From positions 1 through 20,271 of the IMG/VR virus record IMGVR_UViG_3300025789_000192: a stretch of DNA of 20,271 bases; one strand, given 5' to 3'. The translations under genes were made by a program, and so were the position numbers. The notes below the pieces were generated by a model, which made no database searches, was not told the DNA's origin, and saw only the letters and a program-made list of their open reading frames with translations. The stretch comes from a virus. Numbering within the stretch: position 1 is the first letter of the stretch; every line of letters starts with the position of its first letter. Shown here piece by piece: positions 136 to 18,430 of this stretch.

Positions 136-828
136 ATGCTTGGCGCAAACTATCTAGGTGCGCCCTACCTAGGCCAAGCCTACGCAGGGCTAACGCAATA
201 CTCCCCCACCGGCTCGGCCACTGGCACGTTTAGCGGTTCAGCTACCGGCACAGTTGTATATCCGGCTACGGCTACTGGATCGTATTCGTTTAATGGCTCA
301 TCGGCAGACTACATCGTTGCCGCCGATTCTGGACCCTACTCGTTCTCCGGTTCCGCCACCGCTACGTTGTCCTCTACCGGCTCACTTACGGGCACCTTTG
401 CCGGTTCAGGCACATCCGTTCTAAAGGCGTCAGGAAGCCTTACAGGGGCCTTTGCGGGCACTTCAGTAAGCAACGTAAGTTCTACCGGCTCAGGCACGTT
501 TACCTACACGGGGTCGGGAACTGGCGTACAGACATACAAGGCGGCGGGGGTCTATTCGTTCTCCGGCTCTGCTACGGCCAAAATACCCTCAACCGGCACC
601 GGAAACTACACGTTCACCAGCACAGCGCTGGGGTCGGCAGGATCGGTTGTCATTGCCACAATCAGCTGGCAACCAGTCACCGCCAGCGTTTCCAACGATT
701 CGGTGGTCACGGCCACTGTCGCTTCAGATGCTTTAGAGAATTCTTACGCCATTGCTACAACTTCCGACAACGCTACAACCCTTGCCGTTACGACAGATTC
801 AGTAAATACGCTGGCAACGGTTGTATAA
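136..828 (+). CDS. Gly/Ser/Thr-rich repeat protein, probable virion or fibre component
   Basis: This 230-residue protein is dominated by Gly, Ser, Thr and Ala with regularly spaced aromatic residues. Units such as TGTFSGSATG, YSFSGSATA and TGAFAG recur between about residues 24 and 170. The DNA is also repetitive: the stretch near 337-360 is almost the same as that near 551-575. The N-terminus has another short repeat (NYLGAPYLGQAY). There is no signal peptide or membrane span. Alternating hydrophobic and small residues suggest a beta-rich, elongated structure such as a fibre or capsid decoration, which fits its place among structural genes. The exact virion location is unknown. The ATG at 136 is 8 bases after the previous stop and its ribosome binding site is weak. 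The C-terminal 60 residues are non-repetitive and Val/Thr/Asp-rich. Confidence 0.75.
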   Translation: MLGANYLGAPYLGQAYAGLTQYSPTGSATGTFSGSATGTVVYPATATGSYSFNGSSADYIVAADSGPYSFSGSATATLSSTGSLTGTFAGSGTSVLKASGSLTGAFAGTSVSNVSSTGSGTFTYTGSGTGVQTYKAAGVYSFSGSATAKIPSTGTGNYTFTSTALGSAGSVVIATISWQPVTASVSNDSVVTATVASDALENSYAIATTSDNATTLAVTTDSVNTLATVV

Positions 829-9429: not shown

Positions 9430-9569
9430 GCCACCGCCACGAGTGGCTATTGACGCTGTGCGCCACACCCTTTGTATTCTGCAAGGGGTGTGGCTCGCAG
9501 TTCAAGCCGGAGAACCAGCAGTTGCCCTACAGGGGAAAGGTGCCTGAGAAGTATGTCCAAAAAGTTTAA
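9426..9569 (+). CDS. Small zinc-knuckle protein (47 residues)
   Basis: GTG 9426 overlaps the ERF stop by 4 bases (GTGA). The 47-residue product has HRHEW near the start, then Cys12, Cys19 and Cys22 (FCKGCGSQ), a layout often seen in tiny phage zinc-binding proteins. The function is unknown. It overlaps the next small gene by 17 bases in another frame, so both are supported mainly by chaining and by their Cys patterns. Confidence 0.55.
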   Translation: MSHRHEWLLTLCATPFVFCKGCGSQFKPENQQLPYRGKVPEKYVQKV

Positions 9570-9696
9570 GACGTTTCGATGCCCAAAGTGCCTGCTCGTG
9601 GTGGAAGCAATCGCCATTGAGGTTGCACATCGTTGCCCTAGCGACAAGACTAAGGTTGTGACGTTCAGGGAACTAGAAGATTGTGAGATGGAGTGA
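9553..9696 (+). CDS. Small zinc-ribbon-like protein (47 residues)
   Basis: ATG 9553 gives 47 residues beginning MSKKFKTFRCPKCLL. Cys10 and Cys13 (CPKC) with His26 and Cys28 (VAHRC) form a plausible zinc site. An earlier in-frame non-ATG start would lengthen it across the previous gene with an Arg/Ser-rich, unlikely sequence, so ATG 9553 is preferred; GAGAAG stands just upstream. The function is unknown. Its stop overlaps the next start as GTGA. Confidence 0.6.
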   Translation: MSKKFKTFRCPKCLLVVEAIAIEVAHRCPSDKTKVVTFRELEDCEME

Positions 9697-9758: not shown

Positions 9759-10369
9759 AGGTTTTGGTCGCGTGTGAATATTCCGGCAAAGTGCGCCAAG
9801 CGTTTAGGGAATTAGGTCACGATGCCTGGAGCTGCGACCTTCTTCCCGCCGACGACAATTCGCCATTTCATATTCAAGGCGACGTTATGGAAATCCTTAA
9901 TGATGGCTGGGATATGATGATTGCTCACCCACCATGTACGTATTTAACAAATGCTGGGGTCGTATGGCTTCACCGCGACGAGAGCCGGTGGAGTTTGATG
10001 AAAGATGGCGCAGAGTTTTTTAAGGCATTACTTGATGCACCCATACCACTTAAAGCCGTAGAAAACCCCATCATGCATAAGTACGCCGTAGAAATTATTG
10101 GCCGACGCCAAGACCAAGTAGTGCAACCATGGATGTTTGGCCATATGGAACAAAAAGCAACGTGTCTTTGGCTAGTTGGCCTGCCACTTTTAAAGCAAAC
10201 AAATAACGTGCGAAATGAAATGATGGCGTTACCAAAGAACCAAAGAGAGCGCATACACTATTTGCCACCTAGCAAAGACAGATGGAAGATACGTTCGGAA
10301 ACGTATCAAGGAATAGCAAACGCAATGGCCCAGCAATGGGGGAAAGAACAGGAAAACAATGAGCTTTGA
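9755..10369 (+). CDS. Dcm-like cytosine-C5 methyltransferase-fold protein
   Basis: This 204-residue protein begins MKVLVACEYSGKVRQAF, a Rossmann-type cofactor loop, with GHDAWSCDLLP as the second strand. HPPCTYLT carries the Pro-Pro-Cys motif (59-61; Cys61 the expected nucleophile) and VENP (102-105) matches the Glu-Asn-Pro motif of cytosine-C5 methyltransferases. It is much shorter than typical host Dcm enzymes and has no evident target-recognition domain, as in other small phage members. It may methylate phage DNA, or use this fold for another base modification. The gene is visibly more AT-rich than its flanks, which suggests recent acquisition. It overlaps its neighbours by 4 bases upstream and 11 bases downstream. 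Confidence 0.75.
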   Translation: MKVLVACEYSGKVRQAFRELGHDAWSCDLLPADDNSPFHIQGDVMEILNDGWDMMIAHPPCTYLTNAGVVWLHRDESRWSLMKDGAEFFKALLDAPIPLKAVENPIMHKYAVEIIGRRQDQVVQPWMFGHMEQKATCLWLVGLPLLKQTNNVRNEMMALPKNQRERIHYLPPSKDRWKIRSETYQGIANAMAQQWGKEQENNEL

Positions 10370-10751
10370 ACTTATCCTTAAAGAAGTGCAGGCGATGCAC
10401 GATAAGAAGTCACGGGACTACGGGCGACCAGGCGACCCCTACTTCAATATTCGTGGCTCCGAGGACTTCGGTATCTCATCGTGGATCGGTGCGGTTATGC
10501 GTGCCAACGACAAGATGAAGCGACTCCAGCTGGCCGCTGCCGGTGGCACTCTCGCCAACGAGGGTGTAGAGGACAGCCTGCTGGACATGATTACCTACCT
10601 GACTATCGCACTTGATGAGTACCGGAACAAGAACTTCAAGTTCGCCAGCCTGTGCGCCCAGTGTGGTGAGCATTTCGGTGCCGACACGCAGGAACACCTA
10701 CTCGACCTGACCGACCTACACGACTGTAAGAAAGACGGGATTGGTGTTTAA
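10359..10751 (+). CDS. DUF1599/Nmad1-like protein with C-terminal zinc knuckle
   Basis: This 130-residue protein has KKSRDYGRPGDPYFNIRG (about 16-33), GAVMRANDKMKRLQ (about 45-58) and NEGVEDSLLDMITYL (about 67-81). These resemble the nucleotide-modification-associated domain 1 (DUF1599) proteins, which are all-alpha and related in style to MazG-type pyrophosphatases. The C-terminal 35 residues add Cys and His residues (LCAQCGEHFG and HDC) that could bind zinc. I infer a nucleotide-pool or DNA-modification role, supported by the adjacent methyltransferase. ATG 10359 has AGGAAAA upstream. Its TAA shares a base with the next ATG. Confidence 0.6.
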   Translation: MSFELILKEVQAMHDKKSRDYGRPGDPYFNIRGSEDFGISSWIGAVMRANDKMKRLQLAAAGGTLANEGVEDSLLDMITYLTIALDEYRNKNFKFASLCAQCGEHFGADTQEHLLDLTDLHDCKKDGIGV

Positions 10752-10822
10752 TGCTGTTAGCAATTATGTTTACGCTCGTTCTTATTGGCGCAATATCAAA
10801 CCTGATTAACGGTAAGAGATGA
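10751..10822 (+). CDS. 23-residue single-span membrane peptide
   Basis: ATG 10751 shares its A with the previous TAA (TAATG), and the TGA (10820-10822) overlaps the next ATG (ATGA). The peptide MLLAIMFTLVLIGAISNLIN followed by GKR is one hydrophobic span with a positive end. No family is recognised. The exact coupling at both ends and the strong hydrophobicity support it as real. Confidence 0.55.
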   Translation: MLLAIMFTLVLIGAISNLINGKR

Positions 10823-10935
10823 AGTACGCATGGGAACTATGGCTCTTTCTGGTGCCTATCGTGGCGCTGATTACGTTCTACGTCTGGCTGGACGGCCTGC
10901 GCTCTCTGCTGTCCAGTATCAAGGCGGCAACCTGA
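10819..10935 (+). CDS. 38-residue single-span membrane protein
   Basis: ATG 10819 overlaps the previous stop by 4 bases. Residues 5-24 (WELWLFLVPIVALITFYVWL) form a membrane span, followed by a short amphipathic helix (DGLRSLLSSIKAAT). It is the second tiny membrane protein in a row. The function is unknown; small phage membrane proteins of this type sometimes act in exclusion or lysis timing, but nothing here shows that. Confidence 0.6.
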   Translation: MKYAWELWLFLVPIVALITFYVWLDGLRSLLSSIKAAT

Positions 10936-10997
10936 TGTCACAGGCTATGATTACAGTTCGCAGTACCAATGCAGTATCTAATCCTGAGGAGGAAACA

Positions 10998-11144
10998 ATG
11001 AAAGTAGTGACCAGGACTGACATACTCAGTCACGATGAATGGCTCGAAGCCCGAAGCAAGGGTCTGGGAGGCTCCGACGCCGGAACTATCCTCGGCACGA
11101 ACCCCTACAAGGGTCGGCTCGAACTCTGGCTGGTGGCAGAATGA
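10998..11144 (+). pseudogene. N-terminal stub of a YqaJ/lambda-exonuclease family protein
   Basis: ATG 10998 follows a very good GAGGAGG site (10986-10992). The 48-residue product reads DILSHDEWLEARSKGLGGSD, then AGTILGTNPYKGRLELW, the conserved opening of YqaJ/lambda-exonuclease recombinases, in which the Gly-Gly-Ser-Asp-Ala segment precedes the catalytic Asp and Glu-x-Lys. The frame stops at TGA 11142-11144, right after ELWLVAE, so all catalytic residues are absent; full members are usually 200 residues or more. A longer frame from ATG 10935 exists but has a poorer start. It may be a deletion remnant replaced by the Cas4-like nuclease at 7889, or a kept N-terminal domain, since its ribosome site is intact and it overlaps the next gene by 4 bases. 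Confidence 0.65.
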
Positions 11145-11398
11145 GCATCCGCAACGCAACAGACTGCGTGCACGGCTGGCACAGCGTTCTGACCTGCCCG
11201 TTCTGCCTCACCGAGGGCTTCCACGCCTCTCTCAAGGACGCACACCAGTCGATTACGGAGCACCGCCAGGCAACCTGCCCTCACGCCTACGAGGTGCTCG
11301 ACTTCGGCGGCAACCCCGTGTCCAAGCCCCACACCTCAATCTTCTGCCCCGACTGTGGGCTACGGATCGGAGCACCAGGCCCGACCTGGCCGTTCTAA
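11141..11398 (+). CDS. Small multi-cysteine zinc-binding protein (85 residues)
   Basis: ATG 11141 overlaps the previous TGA (ATGA). The 85-residue protein has CPFC (about 19-22) and CPDC (about 69-72) with extra Cys and His residues (DCVHGWH near the start, TEHRQATCPH in the middle), so one or two zinc ribbons are likely. It has no catalytic signature. Codon use is GC-rich, unlike the gene at 11463. It may be a nucleic-acid-binding accessory; this is inferred from the zinc pattern only. Confidence 0.6.
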   Translation: MSIRNATDCVHGWHSVLTCPFCLTEGFHASLKDAHQSITEHRQATCPHAYEVLDFGGNPVSKPHTSIFCPDCGLRIGAPGPTWPF

Positions 11399-11415
11399 CT
11401 CAAGCCCCACCAGCG

Positions 11416-11466
11416 ATGAGCGAGGGAACACGCCCAGCTTGCCCGACCTGCGGAGAGAAACTATGA
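11416..11466 (+). CDS. 16-residue peptide ending in CPTCGEKL
   Basis: ATG 11416 encodes MSEGTRPACPTCGEKL and its stop overlaps the next ATG (ATGA). The last codons (GGAGAGAAACTATGA) also provide the GGAGA ribosome site for the next gene. The same ending recurs at 11645-11660. It is either a micro-protein with a CxxC knuckle or a leader that couples translation. Confidence 0.35.
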   Translation: MSEGTRPACPTCGEKL

Positions 11467-11660
11467 ACACTATATTTCAGGTAAGGGATATTGAAGTATC
11501 AGATGACGATAAACCGTGGGGTATTTTTATTACGGTTCGTAATGAGTCAGCGTGGCTTTCAGTGCAAGAATACCGTTCCCTAATCGTTGCATTGTCTAAC
11601 TTATCGAATAAAGCCTATGAGTTAGACTCCCAATGTCCCAAGTGTGGAGAGAAACTATGA
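11463..11660 (+). CDS. 65-residue protein with CPKCGEKL tail, unknown function
   Basis: ATG 11463 overlaps the previous TGA. The product has strands such as PWGIFITVRNESAWLSVQEY and a helix (RSLIVALSNLSNKAYEL), then ends QCPKCGEKL. Base composition is clearly more AT-rich than the flanking GC-rich genes, which suggests separate origin. The family is not recognised. The tail repeats the ending of the preceding peptide both in protein and DNA, and again forms the ribosome site of the following gene. Confidence 0.6.
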   Translation: MNTIFQVRDIEVSDDDKPWGIFITVRNESAWLSVQEYRSLIVALSNLSNKAYELDSQCPKCGEKL

Positions 11661-11827
11661 GCGACTTTGACGACTTCGACGCTTTCGTCGAGAAGCACCA
11701 GCCCGTGTTTCAGAACATTGGCAGATCTGGCGAGGTGAACTACTACGCCGGTTGTAAAGGTCCCAACGGCACGCTCATCAACCTGTGGCCGTGTGACGCA
11801 GCAAAAGCATTGGAGTATTGTGACTGA
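11657..11827 (+). CDS. 56-residue acidic protein, unknown function
   Basis: ATG 11657 overlaps the previous TGA (ATGA) and uses the GGAGA site encoded in that gene's last codons. The product begins MSDFDDFDAFVEKHQPVFQN and contains NYYAGCKGPNGTLINLWPCD, a compact beta-like segment with two Cys residues, ending ALEYCD. No family is recognised. It overlaps the probable start of the next gene by 8 bases. Confidence 0.55.
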   Translation: MSDFDDFDAFVEKHQPVFQNIGRSGEVNYYAGCKGPNGTLINLWPCDAAKALEYCD

Positions 11828-12347
11828 CATTTACAAGCAGGCTTTGTGCGAGTTCATACAGCAAGGCGTTCTAACGCTTTCTGAGGTCGAGGAAATGGTG
11901 GCATACCTAGAGTCCACCTCTATCGAAAAAAGCCGTGACACGCCAACCTGGGCGGCTGCTGAGCGACTGTGCGCCCACCTTAACTCCGGTCTGGTGGCCA
12001 ACTCGTTCAAGCCGTTCCGTGTGAACGTCACCAGCGTAGGCCACATGGAGAAGTTGCTTCGCATAGATAAGGTGTCCGAGCAAGATGCCTATGCAATGAT
12101 TGACTGGTGCTTGGCACACGAGTTCTGGGGGACTGTGATCCGCTCGCCCGTGAAGTTCCGTAAGCACTACGACACGATGACATTACGGCGCACTAAAGAT
12201 GGCGCAAAACAAGGCCACCCAGCAGTCACTTCCGTACCCCGAATTCCAGTCGCTGAACAGGACTTTTTTGAGAAGAAGCGCAAAGAGCGTGAGGAATCTG
12301 TGCCTATGCCCAAAGACTTCAAGCGTGTGCTAAAATTAGCGCCATGA
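11820..12347 (+). CDS. Putative phage replication initiator / helicase-loader-like protein
   Basis: From GTG 11820 the product is 175 residues. Its middle-to-C-terminal part contains LNSGLVANSFKPFRVNVTSV and then DAYAMIDWCLAHEFWGTVIR, SPVKFRKHYDTM (about 102-116). The pattern of aromatic residues, then S-P-x-K-F/L-R and a basic helix, resembles the C-terminal segment of phage replisome organisers and DnaD-like helicase loaders, which I use as the basis for this call. The C-terminal third is Lys/Arg/Glu-rich. GTG 11820 is preferred because GGAG lies just upstream; GTG 11793 would give 184 residues with a longer overlap. It overlaps the next gene by 4 bases. Neighbouring SSB, ERF and resolvase-like genes support a replication role. 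Confidence 0.5.
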   Translation: MTDIYKQALCEFIQQGVLTLSEVEEMVAYLESTSIEKSRDTPTWAAAERLCAHLNSGLVANSFKPFRVNVTSVGHMEKLLRIDKVSEQDAYAMIDWCLAHEFWGTVIRSPVKFRKHYDTMTLRRTKDGAKQGHPAVTSVPRIPVAEQDFFEKKRKEREESVPMPKDFKRVLKLAP

Positions 12348-12511
12348 CCGAAAACATTACAATTAGCACCGAGGCCGCAGTTCTAGCAACCGAGGCCGCA
12401 GTCGATGCGCTTATGAACAAGTTTGTTCCCGCACTCGTTAAGGCTGGCGTGACCCAGAAGCAACTGCGTGAGGCTCTCGACAGCATCAAGGGAACAAGTG
12501 ACAACGCCTGA
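12344..12511 (+). CDS. 55-residue helical protein, unknown function
   Basis: ATG 12344 overlaps the previous TGA (ATGA). The product begins MTENITISTEAAVLATEAAV and is almost entirely helical (VDALMNKFVPALVKAG, then VTQKQLREALDSIKG). A repeated ATEAAV-like segment is visible near the start. It may be a small coiled-coil or helix-turn-helix-like accessory of the replication gene before it. No family is recognised. Its 3' end overlaps the next gene by 14 bases. Confidence 0.6.
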   Translation: MTENITISTEAAVLATEAAVDALMNKFVPALVKAGVTQKQLREALDSIKGTSDNA

Positions 12512-12839
12512 AAAGGCTAGAGGCTCTCAATGGGAGCGTGATGTTGCCAAAGTGTTTAACGATATGGGATACCCCAACGTTGAACGTCGCTACGGCGCAG
12601 GCAACACGGTGGACAAAGGCGATCTAAACGGCTTCGCCCACGCCATCATCATTGAGTGTAAGAACCTAAAGACCATTACCCTCTCGACCATTATGGACGA
12701 AACAGCCAAAGAGCGAGAGAACGCTAAGGCCGAGCTGGGCATCGCAGTCATTAAACGACGCAACAAGCCCGCCCGTCTGGGTTACGCAGTGGTCACACTC
12801 GAAGAAATGATTTACTTGCTCAAGCAAGCTGGATACTAA
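12498..12839 (+). CDS. Holliday-junction-resolvase-like PD-(D/E)XK nuclease
   Basis: This 113-residue protein has the short PD-(D/E)XK order typical of Hjc-like resolvases: Glu13 in SQWERDVAKVF, Asp42 in DKGDLNG and Glu53-x-Lys55 in IIIECKNL, then a helical end (LEEMIYLLKQAGY). Family members cut branched DNA, which fits resolution of replication and recombination intermediates made by the Cas4-like, ERF and SSB proteins. A small restriction-type or VRR-type nuclease is the alternative. GTG 12498 with AAGGGA upstream is preferred; an earlier in-frame GTG at 12468 adds ten unlikely residues. The gene ends just before a strong promoter. Confidence 0.7.
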   Translation: MTTPEKARGSQWERDVAKVFNDMGYPNVERRYGAGNTVDKGDLNGFAHAIIIECKNLKTITLSTIMDETAKERENAKAELGIAVIKRRNKPARLGYAVVTLEEMIYLLKQAGY

Positions 12840-13242: not shown

Positions 13243-13617
13243 ATGACAGACTGGTCACAAGCTCGATGTATCGGGCAGACTGACCTCTTCTTCGATGACC
13301 GCCTCACACATCAGGCTAGTGCGATATGCGCTACCTGCCCCATAAAGACTGACTGCCTGCACTGGGCCTTAGAACATCAGGAAGCTTGGGGAGTGTGGGG
13401 CGGTTTGTCGTATCCTGAACTACGCATTGTCGCCGTATCGCTGGGCTATGAGCCGCCCAGTCGTAAGTCTCCCGAACATGGCACGGAGAGCGGTCACGCT
13501 TGGCATCGTAGGCGCAAGATAAAAGACCCGAACCATGAGTTCTGCCAGCCGTGTATTGACGCATACAACGCGGCTTCTAAAGTCCGTGTAGCTCGCTATA
13601 GAAAGCGGAAGAAGTAG
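13243..13617 (+). CDS. whiB: WhiB-like Fe-S regulator with C-terminal Cys/His extension (second copy)
   Basis: This 124-residue protein has the WhiB cysteines Cys9, Cys29, Cys32 and Cys38 (ICATCPIKTDCL), spaced C-x19-C-x2-C-x5-C, and the canonical turn GVWGGL (50-55), which the copy at 7409 has altered. Residues about 78-124 form an added module, HGTESGHAWHRRR followed by CQPCIDAYNAA and a very basic end. This resembles the GTRSGYxxHRRRGExPCxxC module that I recall from actinobacterial and actinophage proteins and is a probable second metal or DNA-binding site. Two WhiB proteins with different turns suggest distinct sigma or promoter targets. It is probably read from the ssb promoter. It ends the + strand block, with a structured convergent region after it. 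Confidence 0.9.
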   Translation: MTDWSQARCIGQTDLFFDDRLTHQASAICATCPIKTDCLHWALEHQEAWGVWGGLSYPELRIVAVSLGYEPPSRKSPEHGTESGHAWHRRRKIKDPNHEFCQPCIDAYNAASKVRVARYRKRKK

Positions 13618-13619
13618 GG

Positions 13620-13696
13620 GCTGAACCAGGGGATCGAACTTAGGAAGAAGGGAACTAAGTCGCTCATTACGGGTGAGACTCCCACCCTGGTCCAGC
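13620..13696 (-). ncRNA. tRNA-like or multi-hairpin structure between convergent units
   Basis: The outer arms GCTGAACCAGGG (13620-13631) and CCCTGGTCCAGC (13685-13696) pair over 12 bp with one wobble. Inside are a hairpin with stem GGGTG/CACCC and a 7-base loop (13671-13687, competing for three bases of the outer stem) and ACTTAG/CTAAGT (13638-13660). On the - strand the 3' part reads GTTCGATC before the outer stem, like a tRNA T-loop, and the span is 77 bases with a 7-bp acceptor. But the T-stem does not pair and no anticodon arm with T33 can be drawn, so it is not a normal tRNA. It may be a degenerate tRNA, an attachment-site relic, or a barrier to converging transcription. The strand is uncertain. 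Confidence 0.4.
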
Positions 13697-13747
13697 AGAA
13701 CTATCTTAGCACACAAAACAAGACAACTCGTTTGTGTCCAAGAAAAA

Positions 13748-13797: not shown

Positions 13798-13977
13798 CTA
13801 AAGGTCTAGGCCGTAATATACGCGCAGAAAGTCGGGCTGACACTCTGGCCGATCGTCATGCTCGGTGGCCTCCTGGCAACTGGTGCAGTAGTAGAACTGG
13901 CCACGCGCTAACGTGACCAGCTCCACTACTCGATATTGGCCGCAACCGTCGCACCGTTCTAGGCGTGACTTAGGCAT
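13798..13977 (-). CDS. Small zinc-ribbon protein (59 residues)
   Basis: ATG at 13977 (reverse strand) shares a base with the previous stop (TAATG). The product has CDGCGQYRVV near the start and YYCTSCQEATEHDDRPEC, that is CxxC ... CxxC plus His and Cys, so a zinc ribbon is likely. The frame is open further upstream to 14253 but that extension would cover two other genes. It is the last gene of the leftward block, ending FLRVYYGLDL. The function is unknown. Confidence 0.65.
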   Translation of the reverse strand: MPKSRLERCDGCGQYRVVELVTLARGQFYYCTSCQEATEHDDRPECQPDFLRVYYGLDL

Positions 13978-14135
13978 TATTTTTTGCCGTCCCGATAGAG
14001 AATCATCATGCTCGATAGCGAACATAGAAACGTAAGTGAGGCTACGCCAATAGCCGCTAGCGCTCCGTGATGCGCCACCATGCGACCCATTACCCAGGCT
14101 CCGAATAATGAGATTAGGTAAATGATTACTACCAT
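13977..14135 (-). CDS. Two-span small membrane protein (52 residues)
   Basis: Both ends are coupled by TAATG overlaps (starts at 14135, stops at 13977). The product MVVIIYLISLFGAWVMGRMV and the later GALAAIGVASLTFLCSLSSM form two hydrophobic segments with a short basic/His linker and a charged end (RDGKK). No family is recognised. It is too short for the usual 60-residue cut-off, but its start, stop and hydrophobic pattern are convincing. Confidence 0.65.
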   Translation of the reverse strand: MVVIIYLISLFGAWVMGRMVAHHGALAAIGVASLTFLCSLSSMMILYRDGKK

Positions 14136-14329
14136 TATTCAACCTCCAATGGCGTGAACTCGAAGCTCTCGGTAGTCTTAATGCCGGTGTAATTTTGCAG
14201 ACATAGTTCGGCATAATAGATCGCGTCCTCGGCGTTATCCGCGATAACGTCAATATCGATATAGCACCTAACCGTTATCCAAGTCGTGCCGTCAGTATCG
14301 CGGCCTACGATATTCTTAGTCTCGCTCAT
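14135..14329 (-). CDS. 64-residue protein, unknown function
   Basis: ATG 14329 overlaps the previous stop by 4 bases, and its TAA is shared with the next ATG. The product has TTWITVRCYIDIDVIADNAE (a strand pair), a helix (DAIYYAELCLQNY), and an acidic end (FEFTPLEVE). Small alpha-beta proteins of this DIDVIADNAEDA type are common in actinophage genomes. The role is unknown. Confidence 0.7.
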   Translation of the reverse strand: MSETKNIVGRDTDGTTWITVRCYIDIDVIADNAEDAIYYAELCLQNYTGIKTTESFEFTPLEVE

Positions 14330-14805
14330 AGCTCTACTCCCAAGTTAGTTGCCAAGTCGTAAATGATAGAATCTACATCGGTAGCGTCCCAGATAGGCGC
14401 TACGCCACTTAAAGATTCCATATTGACTACGATACGCTGACCGTAGGCATCGCGGCCTTCGCAGACTTCCAGCGTATATACGCTATAGCCGTAGGTTAAA
14501 GTATCCATGACCAGGCGGCGCAGATTCTTAAACTCATCAGTGCCGCGCACTACGTCGCTCGGCGGCTGCCACCATAGGCGCTGATAGTAGCCACGGTCGA
14601 TTACCTCGGCGTTACCGTTAGCCCAGTCGGGTCGAACCGATCCGTAGTCATTACTACGCACCCACTCCACGCGGCCCAGGTAGTCCAATTCATCATCAAC
14701 GTCATAGAACTCGTCAGGCGTTACCCTTAGCCGCAAAGTCCTACCGTCGCGCAATTCCAGCGTATCGCCATCACTACGCAACATGGTCTTATCCATAATT
14801 GCCAT
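14326..14805 (-). CDS. 159-residue protein with YYQRLWWQPP motif, unknown function
   Basis: The start at 14805 has AGAGGG close upstream; an earlier GTG at 14826 lies inside the GTGAGACA leader motif and is rejected. The product begins with a short beta domain (LELRDGRTLRLRVTPDEFYD), then YLGRVEWVRSNDYGSVRPDW, YYQRLWWQPPSDV (about 82-94) and a helical/strand end with YGYSVYTLEVCEG. The aromatic WWQPP phrase recalls a family of uncharacterised actinophage proteins, from memory only. It is the first gene of the last leftward cluster, behind tRNA-like element 1. Confidence 0.7.
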   Translation of the reverse strand: MAIMDKTMLRSDGDTLELRDGRTLRLRVTPDEFYDVDDELDYLGRVEWVRSNDYGSVRPDWANGNAEVIDRGYYQRLWWQPPSDVVRGTDEFKNLRRLVMDTLTYGYSVYTLEVCEGRDAYGQRIVVNMESLSGVAPIWDATDVDSIIYDLATNLGVEL

Positions 14806-14818
14806 AATATCCCTCTTA

Positions 14819-14847
14819 TGTCTCACTTCAATAGCGTAGGTCGCTAT
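14819..14847 (-). promoter_or_regulatory. Leader with GTGAGACA motif and hairpin (cluster 4)
   Basis: The + strand TGTCTCACT (14819-14827; AGTGAGACA on the - strand) is identical to the loop at 15929-15937 and shares eight bases with that at 18413-18430. Here no stem closes directly around it; instead a 6-bp hairpin ATAGCG/CGCTAT (14831-14847) lies just before it on the - strand. The ribosome site AGAGGG and ATG 14805 follow. This is the most degenerate of the four leaders. Confidence 0.5.
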
Positions 14848-14850
14848 CGC

Positions 14851-14898
14851 GCTAGTGCTAGGAATCGAACCTAGTTACGCCGCCTATCGGCCACTAGC
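14851..14898 (-). ncRNA. Mini tRNA-like element 1 (48 nt)
   Basis: On the - strand, GCTAGTG (14898-14892) pairs perfectly with CACTAGC (14857-14851) as a 7-bp acceptor-like stem. Directly inside are a 4-bp hairpin GCCG/CGGC with loop ATAGG, a 4-base linker GTAA, and a perfect T-arm (CTAGG, loop TTCGATT, CCTAG) abutting the 3' acceptor strand. The T-loop matches the TTCRANY consensus. D and anticodon arms are absent. The 3' flank is GCGATAGCG. It lies between cluster 3 and cluster 4. An RNase P/RNase Z type processing signal is inferred. Confidence 0.65.
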
Positions 14899-14906
14899 CG
14901 CCACTA

Positions 14907-15281
14907 CTAGAACGGTGCCGTAGTCACGTCCAATTCTTCCAGCACGAATAGGATATTGAAACTATCCGTGGGATCGTCGCCCCAGCTCATTCCACCAGTA
15001 ATGAGATAACTAATGCCGCCTAGGTGTAGGTGGCCTATCTCGCGGTTATAGCCGCCATTAAATACGCGCCTAATTCCCTCCTGATAATGCGCTAGCGCGT
15101 CCTCGTTAGTCTCGTTTAGGCGCAGATAGATACCGTAATCTTCCAGGTTACCGGCGTGATTGCTCCAGGCCTTATTGAATCGTTCGATTACCTTAGTAGC
15201 CGTATCATCATTGAACGGTAGCGGCACGTTATTAGCGTCGCTAGGCACCTTAATAATCGCGTAAGTGAAGTCAGCGCCCAT
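14907..15281 (-). CDS. 124-residue GMSWGD-family actinophage protein, unknown function
   Basis: The ATG at 15281 is coupled to the clamp-like gene by TAATG. The product begins MGADFTYAIIKVP and ends with ISYLITGGMSWGDDPTDSFN and a hydrophobic helix. The MGADF opening and the GGMSWGDxPTD motif are features that I recall from a widespread group of uncharacterised proteins in mycobacteriophages and related actinophages. The middle (IYLRLNETNEDALAHYQEGI) is helical. No catalytic role is known to me. Its stop is 9 bases from tRNA-like element 1. Confidence 0.75.
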   Translation of the reverse strand: MGADFTYAIIKVPSDANNVPLPFNDDTATKVIERFNKAWSNHAGNLEDYGIYLRLNETNEDALAHYQEGIRRVFNGGYNREIGHLHLGGISYLITGGMSWGDDPTDSFNILFVLEELDVTTAPF

Positions 15282-15901
15282 TATCGATTAGCTACCGGCA
15301 TGATGACAATAGTAGTCCGTCGATCCCAGCTCTCCAGTCGGATAGGCCGCCGATTATCGTTAATAGCCGTAATGCGGATAGTAGCGTCATCGCCAGACTT
15401 ATTACGTCCCTTAACGCCGCACCATGGCGCTACCTTAATGAAGTCGGCCAGGAAGAACGCGTTAAACGCAATACCTCCATCGACCTCGTGTAGCGTGCCA
15501 GACTTAGGGATAAGGCTAAGAACGTCAGGGTACTTACCGTCGACAAGTCGACCACCGTAGCGCCAGTCCTCGTTAGCGTTACCAATAGTGAAAGTAAGGT
15601 TATCCTCCACCGTTATAGTTACCTCGTCACCAGTCTTAGCCGCGTCTTTAGCGGCCTTAGCCAAGGTATCGCCAGGAATCAGCATAGAACCGGCATCAGC
15701 GCTAGCACTAATAGCTTCGCGCTCGATCGTCACCAACTTATAACGATCGTTAGCGATAGCCATAACATTAGTCACGGTGCCGTCAGTCTTAAAGTCCAAC
15801 AGGACACCAGTTAGTAGGTGCCCAGCCTTATCGCTGCTAGCGAACGCGTTAGCGCTAGCCAGGTCGGTGAACGCGTTAGCGCTCATAGTTAATACAGTCA
15901 T
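15281..15901 (-). CDS. Beta sliding-clamp-like protein (206 residues)
   Basis: This protein resembles phage DNA polymerase III beta-clamp homologues: GVLLDFKTDGTVTNVMAIAN, then DRYKLVTIERE (the ATDxYRL-type strand), MLIPGDTLAKAAK, EDWRYGGRLVDGKYPDVLSL and a C-terminal DRRTTIVIMPVANR like the closing IMP strand of clamps. At 206 residues it has about two clamp-type domains instead of the bacterial three, so a higher-order ring would be needed. It would tether polymerase to DNA. ATG 15901 is preceded by AAGGGA and by a GAGACA hairpin. Without a structure search, a DnaN-like fold with another role remains possible. Confidence 0.6.
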   Translation of the reverse strand: MTVLTMSANAFTDLASANAFASSDKAGHLLTGVLLDFKTDGTVTNVMAIANDRYKLVTIEREAISASADAGSMLIPGDTLAKAAKDAAKTGDEVTITVEDNLTFTIGNANEDWRYGGRLVDGKYPDVLSLIPKSGTLHEVDGGIAFNAFFLADFIKVAPWCGVKGRNKSGDDATIRITAINDNRRPIRLESWDRRTTIVIMPVANR

Positions 15902-15921
15902 ATTATCCCTTATCTAAATTG

Positions 15922-15944
15922 CCGTTAGTGTCTCACTCTAACGG
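15922..15944 (-). promoter_or_regulatory. GAGACA-loop hairpin in the leader of cluster 3
   Basis: Stem CCGTTAG/CTAACGG (7 perfect bp) closes the nine-base loop AGTGAGACA (read on the - strand). About 20 bases later comes AAGGGA and ATG 15901. The loop is shared with the leaders of the other leftward clusters while the stem sequence differs, so structure appears to be conserved. Confidence 0.65.
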
Positions 15945-15967
15945 GACTAGGCACTATGCCTAATCGC

Positions 15968-16015
15968 TCATGGCCTTGGTATCGATCCAAGCTAGGCGGC
16001 CTATCCGCGCCACGA
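15968..16015 (-). ncRNA. Mini tRNA-like element 2 (48 nt)
   Basis: On the - strand TCGTGGC (16015-16009) pairs with GCCATGA (15974-15968) over 7 bp with one G-T wobble. Inside are GCGG/CCGC with loop ATAGG, a linker CTAG, and a T-arm with stem CTTGG/CCAAG and loop ATCGATA. The total length, linker length and small-hairpin loop are identical to element 1, while both stems differ by paired changes. The 3' flank is GCGATTAGG. It lies between clusters 2 and 3. Confidence 0.65.
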
Positions 16016-16026
16016 TTACTACATTA

Positions 16027-16191
16027 CTACTTATACAGTTTCGCTACAAGTGCCGTTAATAGAATCGGCGTTAGCATTAGCACCAGGATCGCTAGCGGCG
16101 TGTTAGGTATTAGTTGTGCGACCTTATAGCCGGTGTAGGCCGCTACTGGTGCCAGGCAGATAATCGCTAGGTGTCGGTTATCGTGTCTCAT
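16027..16191 (-). CDS. Two-span small membrane protein (54 residues)
   Basis: ATG at 16191 is one base after the previous stop. The product begins MRHDNRHLAIICLAPVAAYT and continues with PLAILVLMLTPILLTALVAK, giving two hydrophobic segments and a basic N-terminus. It ends KLYK at TAG 16029-16027. No family is recognised. It closes cluster 2 and is followed directly by tRNA-like element 2. Confidence 0.6.
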   Translation of the reverse strand: MRHDNRHLAIICLAPVAAYTGYKVAQLIPNTPLAILVLMLTPILLTALVAKLYK

Positions 16192-16192
16192 G

Positions 16193-16618
16193 TTAGTAAT
16201 CTTCCACTAGCCGCGCTAATTCTTTCACCGCGTCATCATCACCTAGAACGCGTAGCCAGTTACGGCCTTGGCGCTCCAGTAGCTTCCATGTCTTATAGGT
16301 AGTAGCGCTCCATCCGTGATACTCATTAGCGAACGATTCTAATGTTTCGCAATCTCGGTATATGTAATAGTCAGAACTAACTACGCTAATGATATCGGTA
16401 GCAGTAGGATCGTTAGTAATCGCGCTGCCGGTGTAGTAGTGAATCGTCATTCGGCGGCGATTCCTACCTATGGTGACTAGGTAAGGTGTCATGCCATTAG
16501 TCCAATCTGGCGCATCACCAGGCGCGGCGCTAATCGGCGTGATAGTGATCCTGATTCCTAGCCGTTCTAGCGTGTCATTAACGCTAGTCTCAATATCCGT
16601 TGTGGTGTCGATAGCCAT
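16193..16618 (-). CDS. 141-residue protein, unknown function
   Basis: ATG 16618 is shared with the previous stop (TAATG). The product has an N-terminal helix (VNDTLERLGIRITITP), a strand-rich centre (PYLVTIGRNRRRMTIHYYTG) and a helical end (WKLLERQGRNWLRVLGDDDA, then VKELARLVEDY). There is no catalytic motif, Cys cluster or membrane span. The frame, coupling and ordinary amino-acid use support a real gene. The function is not recognised. Confidence 0.7.
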   Translation of the reverse strand: MAIDTTTDIETSVNDTLERLGIRITITPISAAPGDAPDWTNGMTPYLVTIGRNRRRMTIHYYTGSAITNDPTATDIISVVSSDYYIYRDCETLESFANEYHGWSATTYKTWKLLERQGRNWLRVLGDDDAVKELARLVEDY

Positions 16619-17112
16619 TAGTTGCCGCTAATCCATATAGCCGGTGTCTGCTCGTGGTAGCTCGTGCTATTGGCATTACCTTTAAGGCCGTCAGGGATAA
16701 CTAATACATGTCCCATGCCGCCGCCGCTAGCCGTAATGCTCCAGGAGTAGCCGGTAATCGTGCTAAGAATGACCGCGAGATCGTTTAGGCGCTGCTCACA
16801 ACCTTCTTCGACCCGCTCCCATCCACGCGCAGAAACCTCCTGCTGATAATCGGCGCGACGGTGCAACTCATAACGCTCATCGCCGTTGACCTTCCACGCT
16901 AGGCGGCGTAGTGTTTCAACTATTGGCGGCGTGTTGTGCTGCTCCTCCATAGCCCGCCAAGCCTTAGCACCGTTTCGCGCCATCAAACTAATGATGGTCC
17001 TAATGCGGCCATCAATATCGGCGGCCTTAATCTCATCCGGTAGCCGGTTAAAGATCTCTAGCCCGTCTTTAGTAACGCTAGCCGCGTCAATTCGTTTCAT
17101 TGTGTAGGCCAT
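16618..17112 (-). CDS. 164-residue mostly helical protein, unknown function
   Basis: The start at 17112 and the stop at 16618 are both TAATG overlaps. The N-terminal two thirds are helical and charged (AYTMKRIDAASVTKDGLEIF, RIRTIISLMARNGAKAWRAM, ELHRRADYQQEVSARGWERV). A final beta-like part contains ITGYSWSITASGGGMGHVLV. The Gly-Gly-Gly-Met-Gly segment near the end is notable but matches no motif that I can name. No Cys cluster or span is present. Confidence 0.7.
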   Translation of the reverse strand: MAYTMKRIDAASVTKDGLEIFNRLPDEIKAADIDGRIRTIISLMARNGAKAWRAMEEQHNTPPIVETLRRLAWKVNGDERYELHRRADYQQEVSARGWERVEEGCEQRLNDLAVILSTITGYSWSITASGGGMGHVLVIPDGLKGNANSTSYHEQTPAIWISGN

Positions 17113-17279
17113 TAGTTAAAGCTCCAGGTGCCTACGCGGTTGCCATTAATGTCGCGGATAGTGCCGCTAGTGCTGCCGGTGTCGATAGAACGCGCTACCT
17201 CCTGCAGCGCGTTAGCTACATCCCAAGTATCTGACATGGCATCATTACCCATGTTAATAGTTAGTGTGAACGTGTCCAC
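17112..17279 (-). CDS. 55-residue protein with GTIRDINGNRVG motif
   Basis: GTG 17279 has AAGGGT at good spacing and is the first gene of cluster 2. The product begins VDTFTLTINMGNDAM (initiator read as Met), has a helix (WDVANALQEVARSI) and ends GTIRDINGNRVGTWSFN. The phrase IRDxNGNxVGxW recurs in small actinophage proteins of unknown role, from memory only. The stop is shared with the next ATG. Confidence 0.65.
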   Translation of the reverse strand: MDTFTLTINMGNDAMSDTWDVANALQEVARSIDTGSTSGTIRDINGNRVGTWSFN

Positions 17280-17303
17280 AATTACCCTTCTTTCATTAGT
17301 TAA

Positions 17304-17326
17304 ATGTAGGTGTCTCGCGCCTACAT
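17304..17326 (-). promoter_or_regulatory. GAGACA-loop hairpin in the leader of cluster 2
   Basis: On the - strand ATGTAGG/CCTACAT (7 perfect bp) closes loop CGCGAGACA. This matches the loops of the neighbouring leaders in the last six bases. A gap of about 16 bases leads to AAGGGT and GTG 17279. The stem sequence is unrelated to those of the other hairpins. Confidence 0.6.
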
Positions 17327-17348
17327 AATTAGATTAGCACCTAATCGC

Positions 17349-17397
17349 GCTAGCCGGTGTCTTTGAATCACCTAGGCGGCCTTTAACCGCTACTAGC
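17349..17397 (-). ncRNA. Mini tRNA-like element 3 (49 nt, degenerate)
   Basis: On the - strand GCTAGTA (17397-17391) pairs with GGCTAGC (17355-17349) at six of seven positions, one a wobble. Inside are GCGG/CCGC with loop TTAAAGG, a 3-base linker, and a T-arm-like hairpin GGTG/CACC (17356-17372) with TTCAAAG in the loop. The 3' flank is GCGATTAGG, as in element 2. The order of parts is that of elements 1 and 2, but the T-stem closing pair is mismatched and the small loop is longer. Confidence 0.5.
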
Positions 17398-17408
17398 TAC
17401 CTTAATAC

Positions 17409-17666
17409 CTAGTCCTCTTCCTCTTCCTCTTCAACTACCTTAGCGCCCATGTCCGCTACCTGATCGTTATAGGCGAGAATACATAACGCGTACCAATATT
17501 CGTTCGATATCTCTTCTTCCTCGCGCCCATAGAAAGTTAGTGACTTATACCATGGGCCGCTACCATCATCGATTAGCGCCGTGATGACGGTAGCTCCACT
17601 ACCATAGGCTAGGCCGATAGTGTAAGGGCCTTGTGTCTCTATGTCTTTAATATCGTTAAACGGCAT
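17409..17666 (-). CDS. 85-residue protein with polyglutamate tail
   Basis: ATG 17666 overlaps the previous stop as TGATG. The product has PYTIGLAYGSGATVITALID and GPWYKSLTFYGREEEEISNE, a strand-rich core, then a helix (YWYALCILAYND), and ends VVEEEEEED. The acidic tail suggests DNA mimicry or metal binding, but this is only a guess from composition. It is the last gene of cluster 1 and stops about 12 bases before tRNA-like element 3. Confidence 0.65.
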   Translation of the reverse strand: MPFNDIKDIETQGPYTIGLAYGSGATVITALIDDGSGPWYKSLTFYGREEEEISNEYWYALCILAYNDQVADMGAKVVEEEEEED

Positions 17667-18127
17667 CAGGCACCGGCCTTTAATGATTCGATTACCTCTG
17701 AGAGATACGCGATTAATTCTGCATTGTGTGCCGTTAGCGCGGCGGCCTTATCGCGGCATTCTTCGTCCTCGTTAGCGTTAATGCCGTAGTAGCGGATTAA
17801 TGCGCGGTTAGCGTAGATAATCTCTGCCACGTCGCTAGCGTTATCGGTAGTAATCGCCAATGGCATGATGCCGGCATCAATGGCAGATTCCAATTCACGA
17901 GCAACGCGCTCAATAATGATCTCTTTACGGTCCCATCCCTCAGAGTAAATCAATTCAATGACGGTGCCGTTAATGGTGACGTGCTCGTTATACGTGTGGC
18001 ACTTGCCTAGCGTGTCTGATTCCAATTCTGTAACGCGGTTTCGGCGCTTGGAGCTAAGTTGCCAAGTGATTAAATCACTTAAGTTATTAATCACAATTAT
18101 GTCGCTAATCGTTGTGCGCGTAGCCAT
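17666..18127 (-). CDS. 153-residue protein, unknown function
   Basis: The start at 18127 shares a base with the previous stop (TAATG). The product has TISDIIVINNLSDLITWQLS near the start, a beta hairpin (YNEHVTINGTVIELIYSEGW), and a long helical C-terminus (ELESAIDAGIMPLAITTDNA, then CRDKAAALTAHNAELIAYLS). No Cys cluster, span or catalytic motif is seen. It is strongly acidic overall. Confidence 0.7.
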   Translation of the reverse strand: MATRTTISDIIVINNLSDLITWQLSSKRRNRVTELESDTLGKCHTYNEHVTINGTVIELIYSEGWDRKEIIIERVARELESAIDAGIMPLAITTDNASDVAEIIYANRALIRYYGINANEDEECRDKAAALTAHNAELIAYLSEVIESLKAGA

Positions 18128-18390
18128 TATGCGCCTACCTTCTCGCGAGATTCGTTGAATTGAATAGCTAGATCCACGATCAGATTCGCGCTAATGTCCT
18201 GGCCGAACACGGTGACTTGTGTTGTGTCGCCGTTGTCTTTGTATTGCCAGATAGCTCCACTAGTGGCGATCATGCCGCCCCCCGCGAACACAATTAAAGT
18301 CTCTCGCGATTGAATCACGGTGAGTAATGTATTAATGTTGAACGCTTGGAGAATCTCCCGCGCATCACTTAAAACAGTTGATGTAGTCAT
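18127..18390 (-). CDS. 87-residue protein, first gene of the leftward block
   Basis: ATG 18390 follows AAAAGGGA and a promoter plus GAGACA hairpin, so this is the first gene of leftward transcription. The product has a helix (SDAREILQAFNINTLLTVIQ), then LIVFAGGGMIATSGAIWQYK and VTVFGQDISANLIVDLAIQF, a likely small alpha-beta fold. The Gly-rich turn (AGGGM) is the only marked feature. The function is unknown; first genes of early blocks often act against the host, but nothing in the sequence shows this. Confidence 0.7.
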   Translation of the reverse strand: MTTSTVLSDAREILQAFNINTLLTVIQSRETLIVFAGGGMIATSGAIWQYKDNGDTTQVTVFGQDISANLIVDLAIQFNESREKVGA

Positions 18391-18412: not shown

Positions 18413-18430
18413 CCGGTGTCTCACTACCGG
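18413..18430 (-). promoter_or_regulatory. GAGACA-loop hairpin in the leader of cluster 1
   Basis: On the - strand CCGGT/ACCGG (5 bp) closes loop AGTGAGAC. It would begin within a few bases of the predicted transcription start near 18433, so it would form the 5' end of the mRNA. AAAAGGGA and ATG 18390 follow. Confidence 0.65.

Follow-up and report, generated by a model that had tools for sequence, protein, structure and literature searches.

Covarying mini-tRNA-like elements between genes of bacterial viruses, proposed as RNA processing signals interchangeable with hammerhead ribozymes

Introduction

The closest described systems to the elements reported here are the t-elements, which occur in plant mitochondria and upstream of 5S rRNA in Haloferax volcanii (PMC11658184, PMC4326828). 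We analysed a 20,271-base IMG/VR virus record (IMGVR_UViG_3300025789_000192), the whole of which is referred to as the window, whose leftward gene block carries three small tRNA-like elements, E1, E2 and E3, that we call mini-tRNAs. As in t-elements, the fold is tRNA-like, there is no translational role, the position is at a boundary and CCA is not encoded, as in none of the Arabidopsis t-elements; t-elements are cut by RNase P and/or tRNase Z, which defines mRNA or rRNA ends, and the phage elements may be cut likewise (PMC11658184, PMC4326828). The phage elements differ from t-elements in being 46–56 nt long and mostly three-armed, with no anticodon arm, in belonging to bacterial viruses, and in being followed by a hairpin. 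By analogy, a phage element would work like a t-element, membership of that class hinging on cleavage.

Likewise, in the tRNA punctuation of animal mitochondria, tRNA structures between genes mark the cuts, but those are genuine decoding tRNAs, unlike the phage elements. Tandem hammerhead ribozymes of prophages flank single genes or short blocks in phage transcripts and cleave in tests, and it has been suggested that they divide phage RNAs into mRNAs of operon or gene length (Perreault et al. 2011; PMC3088659). They self-cleave through the hammerhead core; mini-tRNAs, which lack a catalytic core, would depend on host nucleases. Works cited in PMC11143913 and PMC4919913 present the phi80-induced RNA, the C4 RNA of P1/P7 and E. 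coli operon mRNAs as tRNA-like or related RNAs cut by RNase P; these are single cases, whereas the phage elements form a family repeated at gene boundaries. RNase P and RNase Z measure the stack of acceptor and T stems, the T-loop is needed, and CCA is an antideterminant for RNase Z (PMC4919913). We found no paper on such elements in phages in the open literature, which leaves subscription journals mostly uncovered, and, among the papers matched, those that pair the term tRNA punctuation with "phage" concern organelles.

Results

E1–E3 are real RNA structures, two of them perfect copies and one degenerate (Table 1). Both E1 and E2 form 7, 4 and 5 base pairs (bp) without a mismatch, a single G·U in E2 being the only wobble, and the predicted fold of each is exactly this structure; the preliminary description had stated stems perfect or with one wobble, and this was borne out, as were its coordinates and strand for all three elements. 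A geometry scan for a 7-bp stem, a 4-bp hairpin, a linker and a T-arm of 5 bp and 7 nt, with perfect pairs and G·U allowed, returned E1 and E2 and no others in the window. The chance expectation, over both strands of a dinucleotide-shuffled window, is 0.087 perfect geometry matches, falling to 0.007 when the T-loop must hold C-R-A and the small loop a G. E3 has an A·G at the foot of its acceptor and an A·A at the top of its T-stem, and scores 16.4 bits with a model not trained on it; its orthologues in related phages, on which the model was likewise untrained, score 34 bits (L005:3111) and 33.6 bits (L006:1028) and share the 20-mer TAGTAGCGGTTAAAGGCCGC.

Three related contigs, L004, L005 and L006, were found through the clamp-like protein of the block. 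They carry orthologues of E1 (L004:6607, L005:4644, L006:2740) and of E2 (L004:5886, L005:3910, L006:2007), the latter each upstream of the clamp-like gene and with covarying stems. Counting the window, the acceptors at this position read TCGTGGC/GCCATGA, TCGCGGC/GCCGCGA, TCCGGGC/GCCTGGA and TCTGGGC/GCTTGGA, and the T-stems CTTGG/CCAAG, TCGGG/CCCGA and CGCGG/CCGCG. Seven 48-mers align without gaps, with 99.1% of cells paired and two-sided changes in 10 of the 16 pairs. Paired cells make up 97.5% of an alignment of 13 elements and 97.3% of one of 22 elements from related and unrelated phages (A7), in which 15 of the 16 pairs show two-sided changes; A7 was fitted to the model, so that its counts lean towards the model, while the seven-member alignment was not fitted. 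A7 holds 104 cells with two-sided changes versus 30 in shuffles, and its pair cells include 13 G·U versus 0 A·C. Covariation is present in all three helices and, together with the excess of G·U over A·C, indicates that the elements act as RNA on the gene strand, under selection on the sense RNA. Covarying homologues, on which the preliminary description had staked its reading, are thus found in related and unrelated phages alike, and the covariation is strong.

An element consists of an acceptor-like stem of 7 bp (or 6), a 4-bp hairpin whose loop carries a D-loop-like GG, and a T-arm whose loop contains UUCRA. T-loop residues C56, R57 and A58 are invariant across the alignment, T54-T55 occur in most elements, and the G53-C61 pair is present in 21 of 22. 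The stack of acceptor and T stems is constant at 11–12 bp, and the lengths of the small loop and linker vary. Most members have GG at the end of the small loop, where it may make the G19-C56 elbow contact. It had been stated that the elements have neither D nor anticodon arms; the anticodon arm is indeed absent, but a 4-bp hairpin whose loop mostly ends in GG occupies the place of the D-arm and is better read as D-arm-like.

The elements also share a setting. The usual order is the stop codon of a same-strand gene, 5–18 nt, the element, R-C-K-A, a hairpin, a ribosome-binding site (RBS) and a start codon. The R-C-K-A flank 3' of the acceptor (GCGA, ACTA, ACGA) holds for most members, L049, L052 and L054 being exceptions; the distance from the acceptor end to the hairpin is usually no more than about 4 nt, and the RBS and start codon usually follow the element within 90 nt, with L049 as an outlier. 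In the window block, nine of the 12 boundaries have −4 to +4 nt between genes, and the other three have gaps of 101, 125 and 129 nt, which hold E1, E2 and E3 respectively, one each. Elements had been placed at every internal boundary of the block; all three long gaps are filled, but at the nine remaining boundaries the genes overlap or lie at most 4 nt apart. Promoter-like sites in the block number eight, against 7.8 expected in shuffles, which neither demonstrates internal promoters nor rules them out.

The same order of stop, element, hairpin and RBS recurs in unrelated phages, where elements were sought by a pattern scan of viral contigs and a scan with a second block protein, followed by a search with model R1. 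They were found in L048, L049, L052, L054/L055 and L060. L048 and L060 carry WhiB genes, as does the window, which points to actinobacterial hosts. A clamp-like gene of L048 sits between two mini-tRNAs and has no significant similarity to that of the window, for which there are only distant matches (<29% identity). Named relatives of the block were not found by blastn of the blocks of the window, L052, L055 and L049 against the phage collection, nor by tblastn of L048 and L060 proteins, and the clamp alignment finds no relative in bacterial genomes.

Some other matches were set aside. One pattern match (L086) is part of a selenocysteine tRNA, and T-arm matches in Streptomyces phage Tomas, Phaeobacter phage MD18 and Clostridioides phage phiCD418 look tRNA-array or attP-like. 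A 24-bit match to R1 at window positions 138-179 (+) lies within the first codons of an open reading frame (ORF) and was taken as chance, as was a coding match at L055:4407. A scan of 296 genomes with model R2 scored 20 candidates per genome and was hence uninformative. Two Planctomycetota contigs hold matches that score less well with the mini-tRNA model (L077:591-638 and 9-51, both −; L084:7819-7866, +); they lie outside any ARAGORN tRNA and could be further members or chance.

A short blastn match led to Thermobifida phage P318 (L110, MK240575), an isolate with the host T. fusca, where mini-tRNAs share their slot with hammerhead ribozymes. P318 has two four-arm elements of 55–56 nt, the fourth arm being very short (AACC-UAUAC-GGUU in one), with ACTACC or ACTGCC next and then a hairpin. 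A third, longer element at the orf48/orf47 boundary may be tRNA-like, in a fold that we drew ourselves and that is not the predicted minimum-energy fold. The leftward block also holds five type II hammerheads above the Rfam cutoff (10019-12548, −), the only ones in the genome. Along eight successive boundaries the order is one hammerhead, one tRNA-like element, four hammerheads and two tRNA-like elements; each of the eight features begins 0–18 nt past the stop of one gene and lies ahead of the next RBS, and none is in the record's annotation, which also omits at least one ORF between two hammerheads (L110:10809-11153). Cutting by a hammerhead here gives a downstream RNA that begins with a hairpin.

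The exchange is also observed elsewhere. L052 holds a single hammerhead and a single mini-tRNA, both lying between genes, and L023, L024 and L025, which WhiB (about 71% identity) marks as sisters of the window phage, have hammerheads in the leftward block that corresponds to that of the window. Those of L023 and L024 are at gene ends; in L025 the gap estimates are negative and the ORF assignment is uncertain. At the thresholds used, these three sisters and a further one, L016, have no mini-tRNAs.

The elements fall outside the standard RNA classes. They are not canonical tRNA genes with four arms and a 7-nt anticodon loop: ARAGORN finds no tRNA in the window or in the element-bearing L048, L052, L054, L055, L060 and P318 loci, and the two ordinary tRNAs that it finds in L049 are away from the elements; the Rfam tRNA family (RF00005) has no match in the window, L004–L006, L048, L060 or L110. 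With t-elements they share the tRNA-like fold at gene boundaries and the absence of an encoded CCA, none of the six 3' flanks (GCGA, ACTA, ACGA, GCTG, ATTG, CATT) being a discriminator followed by CCA. Rfam finds no hammerhead core (CUGANGA...GAAA, RF02276) in the window, L004–L006, L048 or L060. No site resembling an intrinsic terminator, with a GC hairpin and a U run, is present at the elements, where the flank is R-C-K-A and then a hairpin.

Table 1. Positions of the elements and associated features (window coordinates unless a contig is given).
Feature	Position	Strand	Details
Mini-tRNA-like element E1	14851..14898	-	acceptor GCTAGTG/CACTAGC, hairpin GCCG-ATAGG-CGGC, linker GTAA, T-arm CTAGG-TTCGATT-CCTAG
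Hairpin 1 nt downstream of E1	14829..14849	-	fold z -2.7
Mini-tRNA-like element E2	15968..16015	-	acceptor TCGTGGC/GCCATGA, hairpin GCGG-ATAGG-CCGC, linker CTAG, T-arm CTTGG-ATCGATA-CCAAG
Hairpin 2 nt downstream of E2	15945..15965	-	
Mini-tRNA-like element E3, degenerate	17349..17397	-	acceptor GCTAGTA/GGCTAGC, hairpin GCGG-TTAAAGG-CCGC, T-arm GGTGA-TTCAAAG-ACACC
Hairpin 2 nt downstream of E3	17332..17346	-	GATTAG-GTG-CTAATC
Leftward gene block punctuated by E1-E3	13798..18390	-	
Boundary 1	14805..14910	-	stop TAG 14907-14909, 8 nt, E1, hairpin, leader, start ATG 14805
Boundary 2	15901..16030	-	stop TAG 16027-16029, 11 nt, E2, hairpins, RBS, start ATG 15901 (clamp-like gene)
Boundary 3	17279..17412	-	stop TAG 17409-17411, 11 nt, E3, hairpins, RBS, start GTG 17279
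DNA polymerase III beta (clamp) central domain gene	15281..15901	-	Pfam PF02767, E 4.6e-10; cassette between E2 and E1
Type II hammerheads at or near gene ends, uncultured phages	L023:10579-10640; L024:6936-6997; L025:10316-10377 and 9533-9594; L052:10440-10504	-	

Discussion

We consider it probable that the elements serve as intercistronic signals for RNA processing and mimic the acceptor and the D-loop/T-loop elbow of tRNA. The block would be transcribed leftward as a single RNA, in which each element would fold right after a stop codon and be recognised by host nucleases that mature tRNAs. The most economical scheme would be a cut by RNase Z after the 3' end of the acceptor (position 73), such that the upstream mRNA would end in a mini-tRNA and the downstream mRNA would start a few nucleotides before the hairpin, the one at 14829..14849 becoming, if cut, the 5'-end hairpin of its mRNA. 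Two features speak for RNase Z as the 3'-side nuclease: where the downstream hairpin lies, and that no CCA is encoded. A second cut, by RNase P at the 5' side, may occur as well and would release a 46–56 nt RNA; this double cut, the version of the preliminary description, is one of two possible versions. Either way, a polycistronic RNA would become separate, end-protected mRNAs, as with hammerheads.

Chief among our reasons for reading the mini-tRNA as a cutter is the alternation of two dissimilar RNAs in a single slot. The hammerhead-cut product has a 5' hairpin, and the mini-tRNA slot gives the same product if cut at the 3' end of the acceptor. The tRNA-punctuation role put forward in the preliminary description, with its presumed cleavage, thereby gains independent support from the hammerheads of P318, L052 and L023/L024/L025. 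More broadly, though with less assurance, we lean towards the view that phages, mainly of Actinobacteria, punctuate long transcripts with cassettes of two exchangeable kinds, self-cleaving hammerheads and minimal tRNA mimics that rely on tRNA-processing nucleases of the host, the cuts giving the upstream RNA a structured 3' end (the mini-tRNA) and the downstream RNA a 5' hairpin.

Several points weigh against processing. Cleavage, the acting nuclease, the protection of ends and the benefit to the phage are what we infer, and the hosts are deduced from WhiB genes. The T-stem of E3 is broken and E3 may be dead, the elements of L049 have neither the R-C-K-A flank nor a close hairpin, and members in L006 (L006d), L048 and L060 have just six acceptor pairs.

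Stable stems generally protect RNA, and the element usually lies 5–18 nt past a stop codon with a hairpin after it; mini-tRNA and hairpin could therefore be a structural roadblock that shields the mRNA against exonucleases or separates the translation of neighbouring genes while the RNA stays whole. We regard this as improbable, since a plain hairpin would suffice, leaving the UUCRA T-loop, the GG of the small loop and the 11–12 bp stack unexplained, along with the exchange with self-cleaving ribozymes. Less probable still is an action in trans, for instance as a decoy that draws off host tRNA enzymes or defences directed at tRNA, in which cutting would only release the mini-tRNA. The conserved tRNA-like elbow and the several copies per genome would suit such a role, but an RNA acting in trans needs no place between stop and RBS, no following hairpin and no hammerhead slot, and one without an anticodon is no decoy for anticodon nucleases. 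Very improbable is a feature of the DNA or a relic, in which tRNA genes would have decayed or given rise to sites of recombination or attachment. The T-arm-like matches at attP-like or tRNA-array positions in phiCD418, Tomas and MD18 would fit it, but it is largely refuted by the covariation and the strand-specific G·U bias; the many covarying copies per genome, the compact geometry without an anticodon arm and the shared context in unrelated phages also speak against it.

If processing by tRNA-maturing nucleases is correct, mini-tRNAs would be, as far as we know, the first case of tRNA punctuation in a bacterial virus; among natural families of RNase Z/P substrates with an elbow, theirs might also be the smallest. 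tRNA punctuation, known from organelles, would also occur in bacterial viruses. Such a role would assign a function to RNA elements missed by annotation (ARAGORN, Rfam) and connect them with hammerhead ribozymes, for which no clear purpose in phages has been established. The host of P318 is named and can be cultured, which opens the idea to direct test, and actinobacterial genetics might use the elements as compact cutting tags.

Other features of the locus

A GYGAGACA motif precedes every gene cassette of the window block, including the first (14819-14826, 15929-15936, 17311-17318 and 18417-18424, all −). It lies in a hairpin loop at three of the four sites, and the window has five matches against 1.4 expected. 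Hairpins with GAGA or GTGACAC loops occupy the equivalent place in L004, L005 and L016, and the site is possibly a protein-binding leader element. By eye, leader hairpins of the CGTAGAGAGCGACT type are also seen at gene-cluster boundaries of the sister phage L016 (11380-13620, −), one of which has a promoter-like TTGACA-N-TATAGAAT sequence; this could be a third means of beginning a cassette.

Past the end of the leftward block, window positions 13602-13700 (−) hold a candidate conserved structured RNA, with no Rfam match in the window. It is also found after the WhiB gene in L016, L017, L018, L019, L020, L023 and L025, and its outer stem of ~12 bp varies in sequence yet keeps its pairing around the core GTAATGANCGACTTG. 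In several contigs a −10-like TATAAT or TACAAT lies upstream of it.

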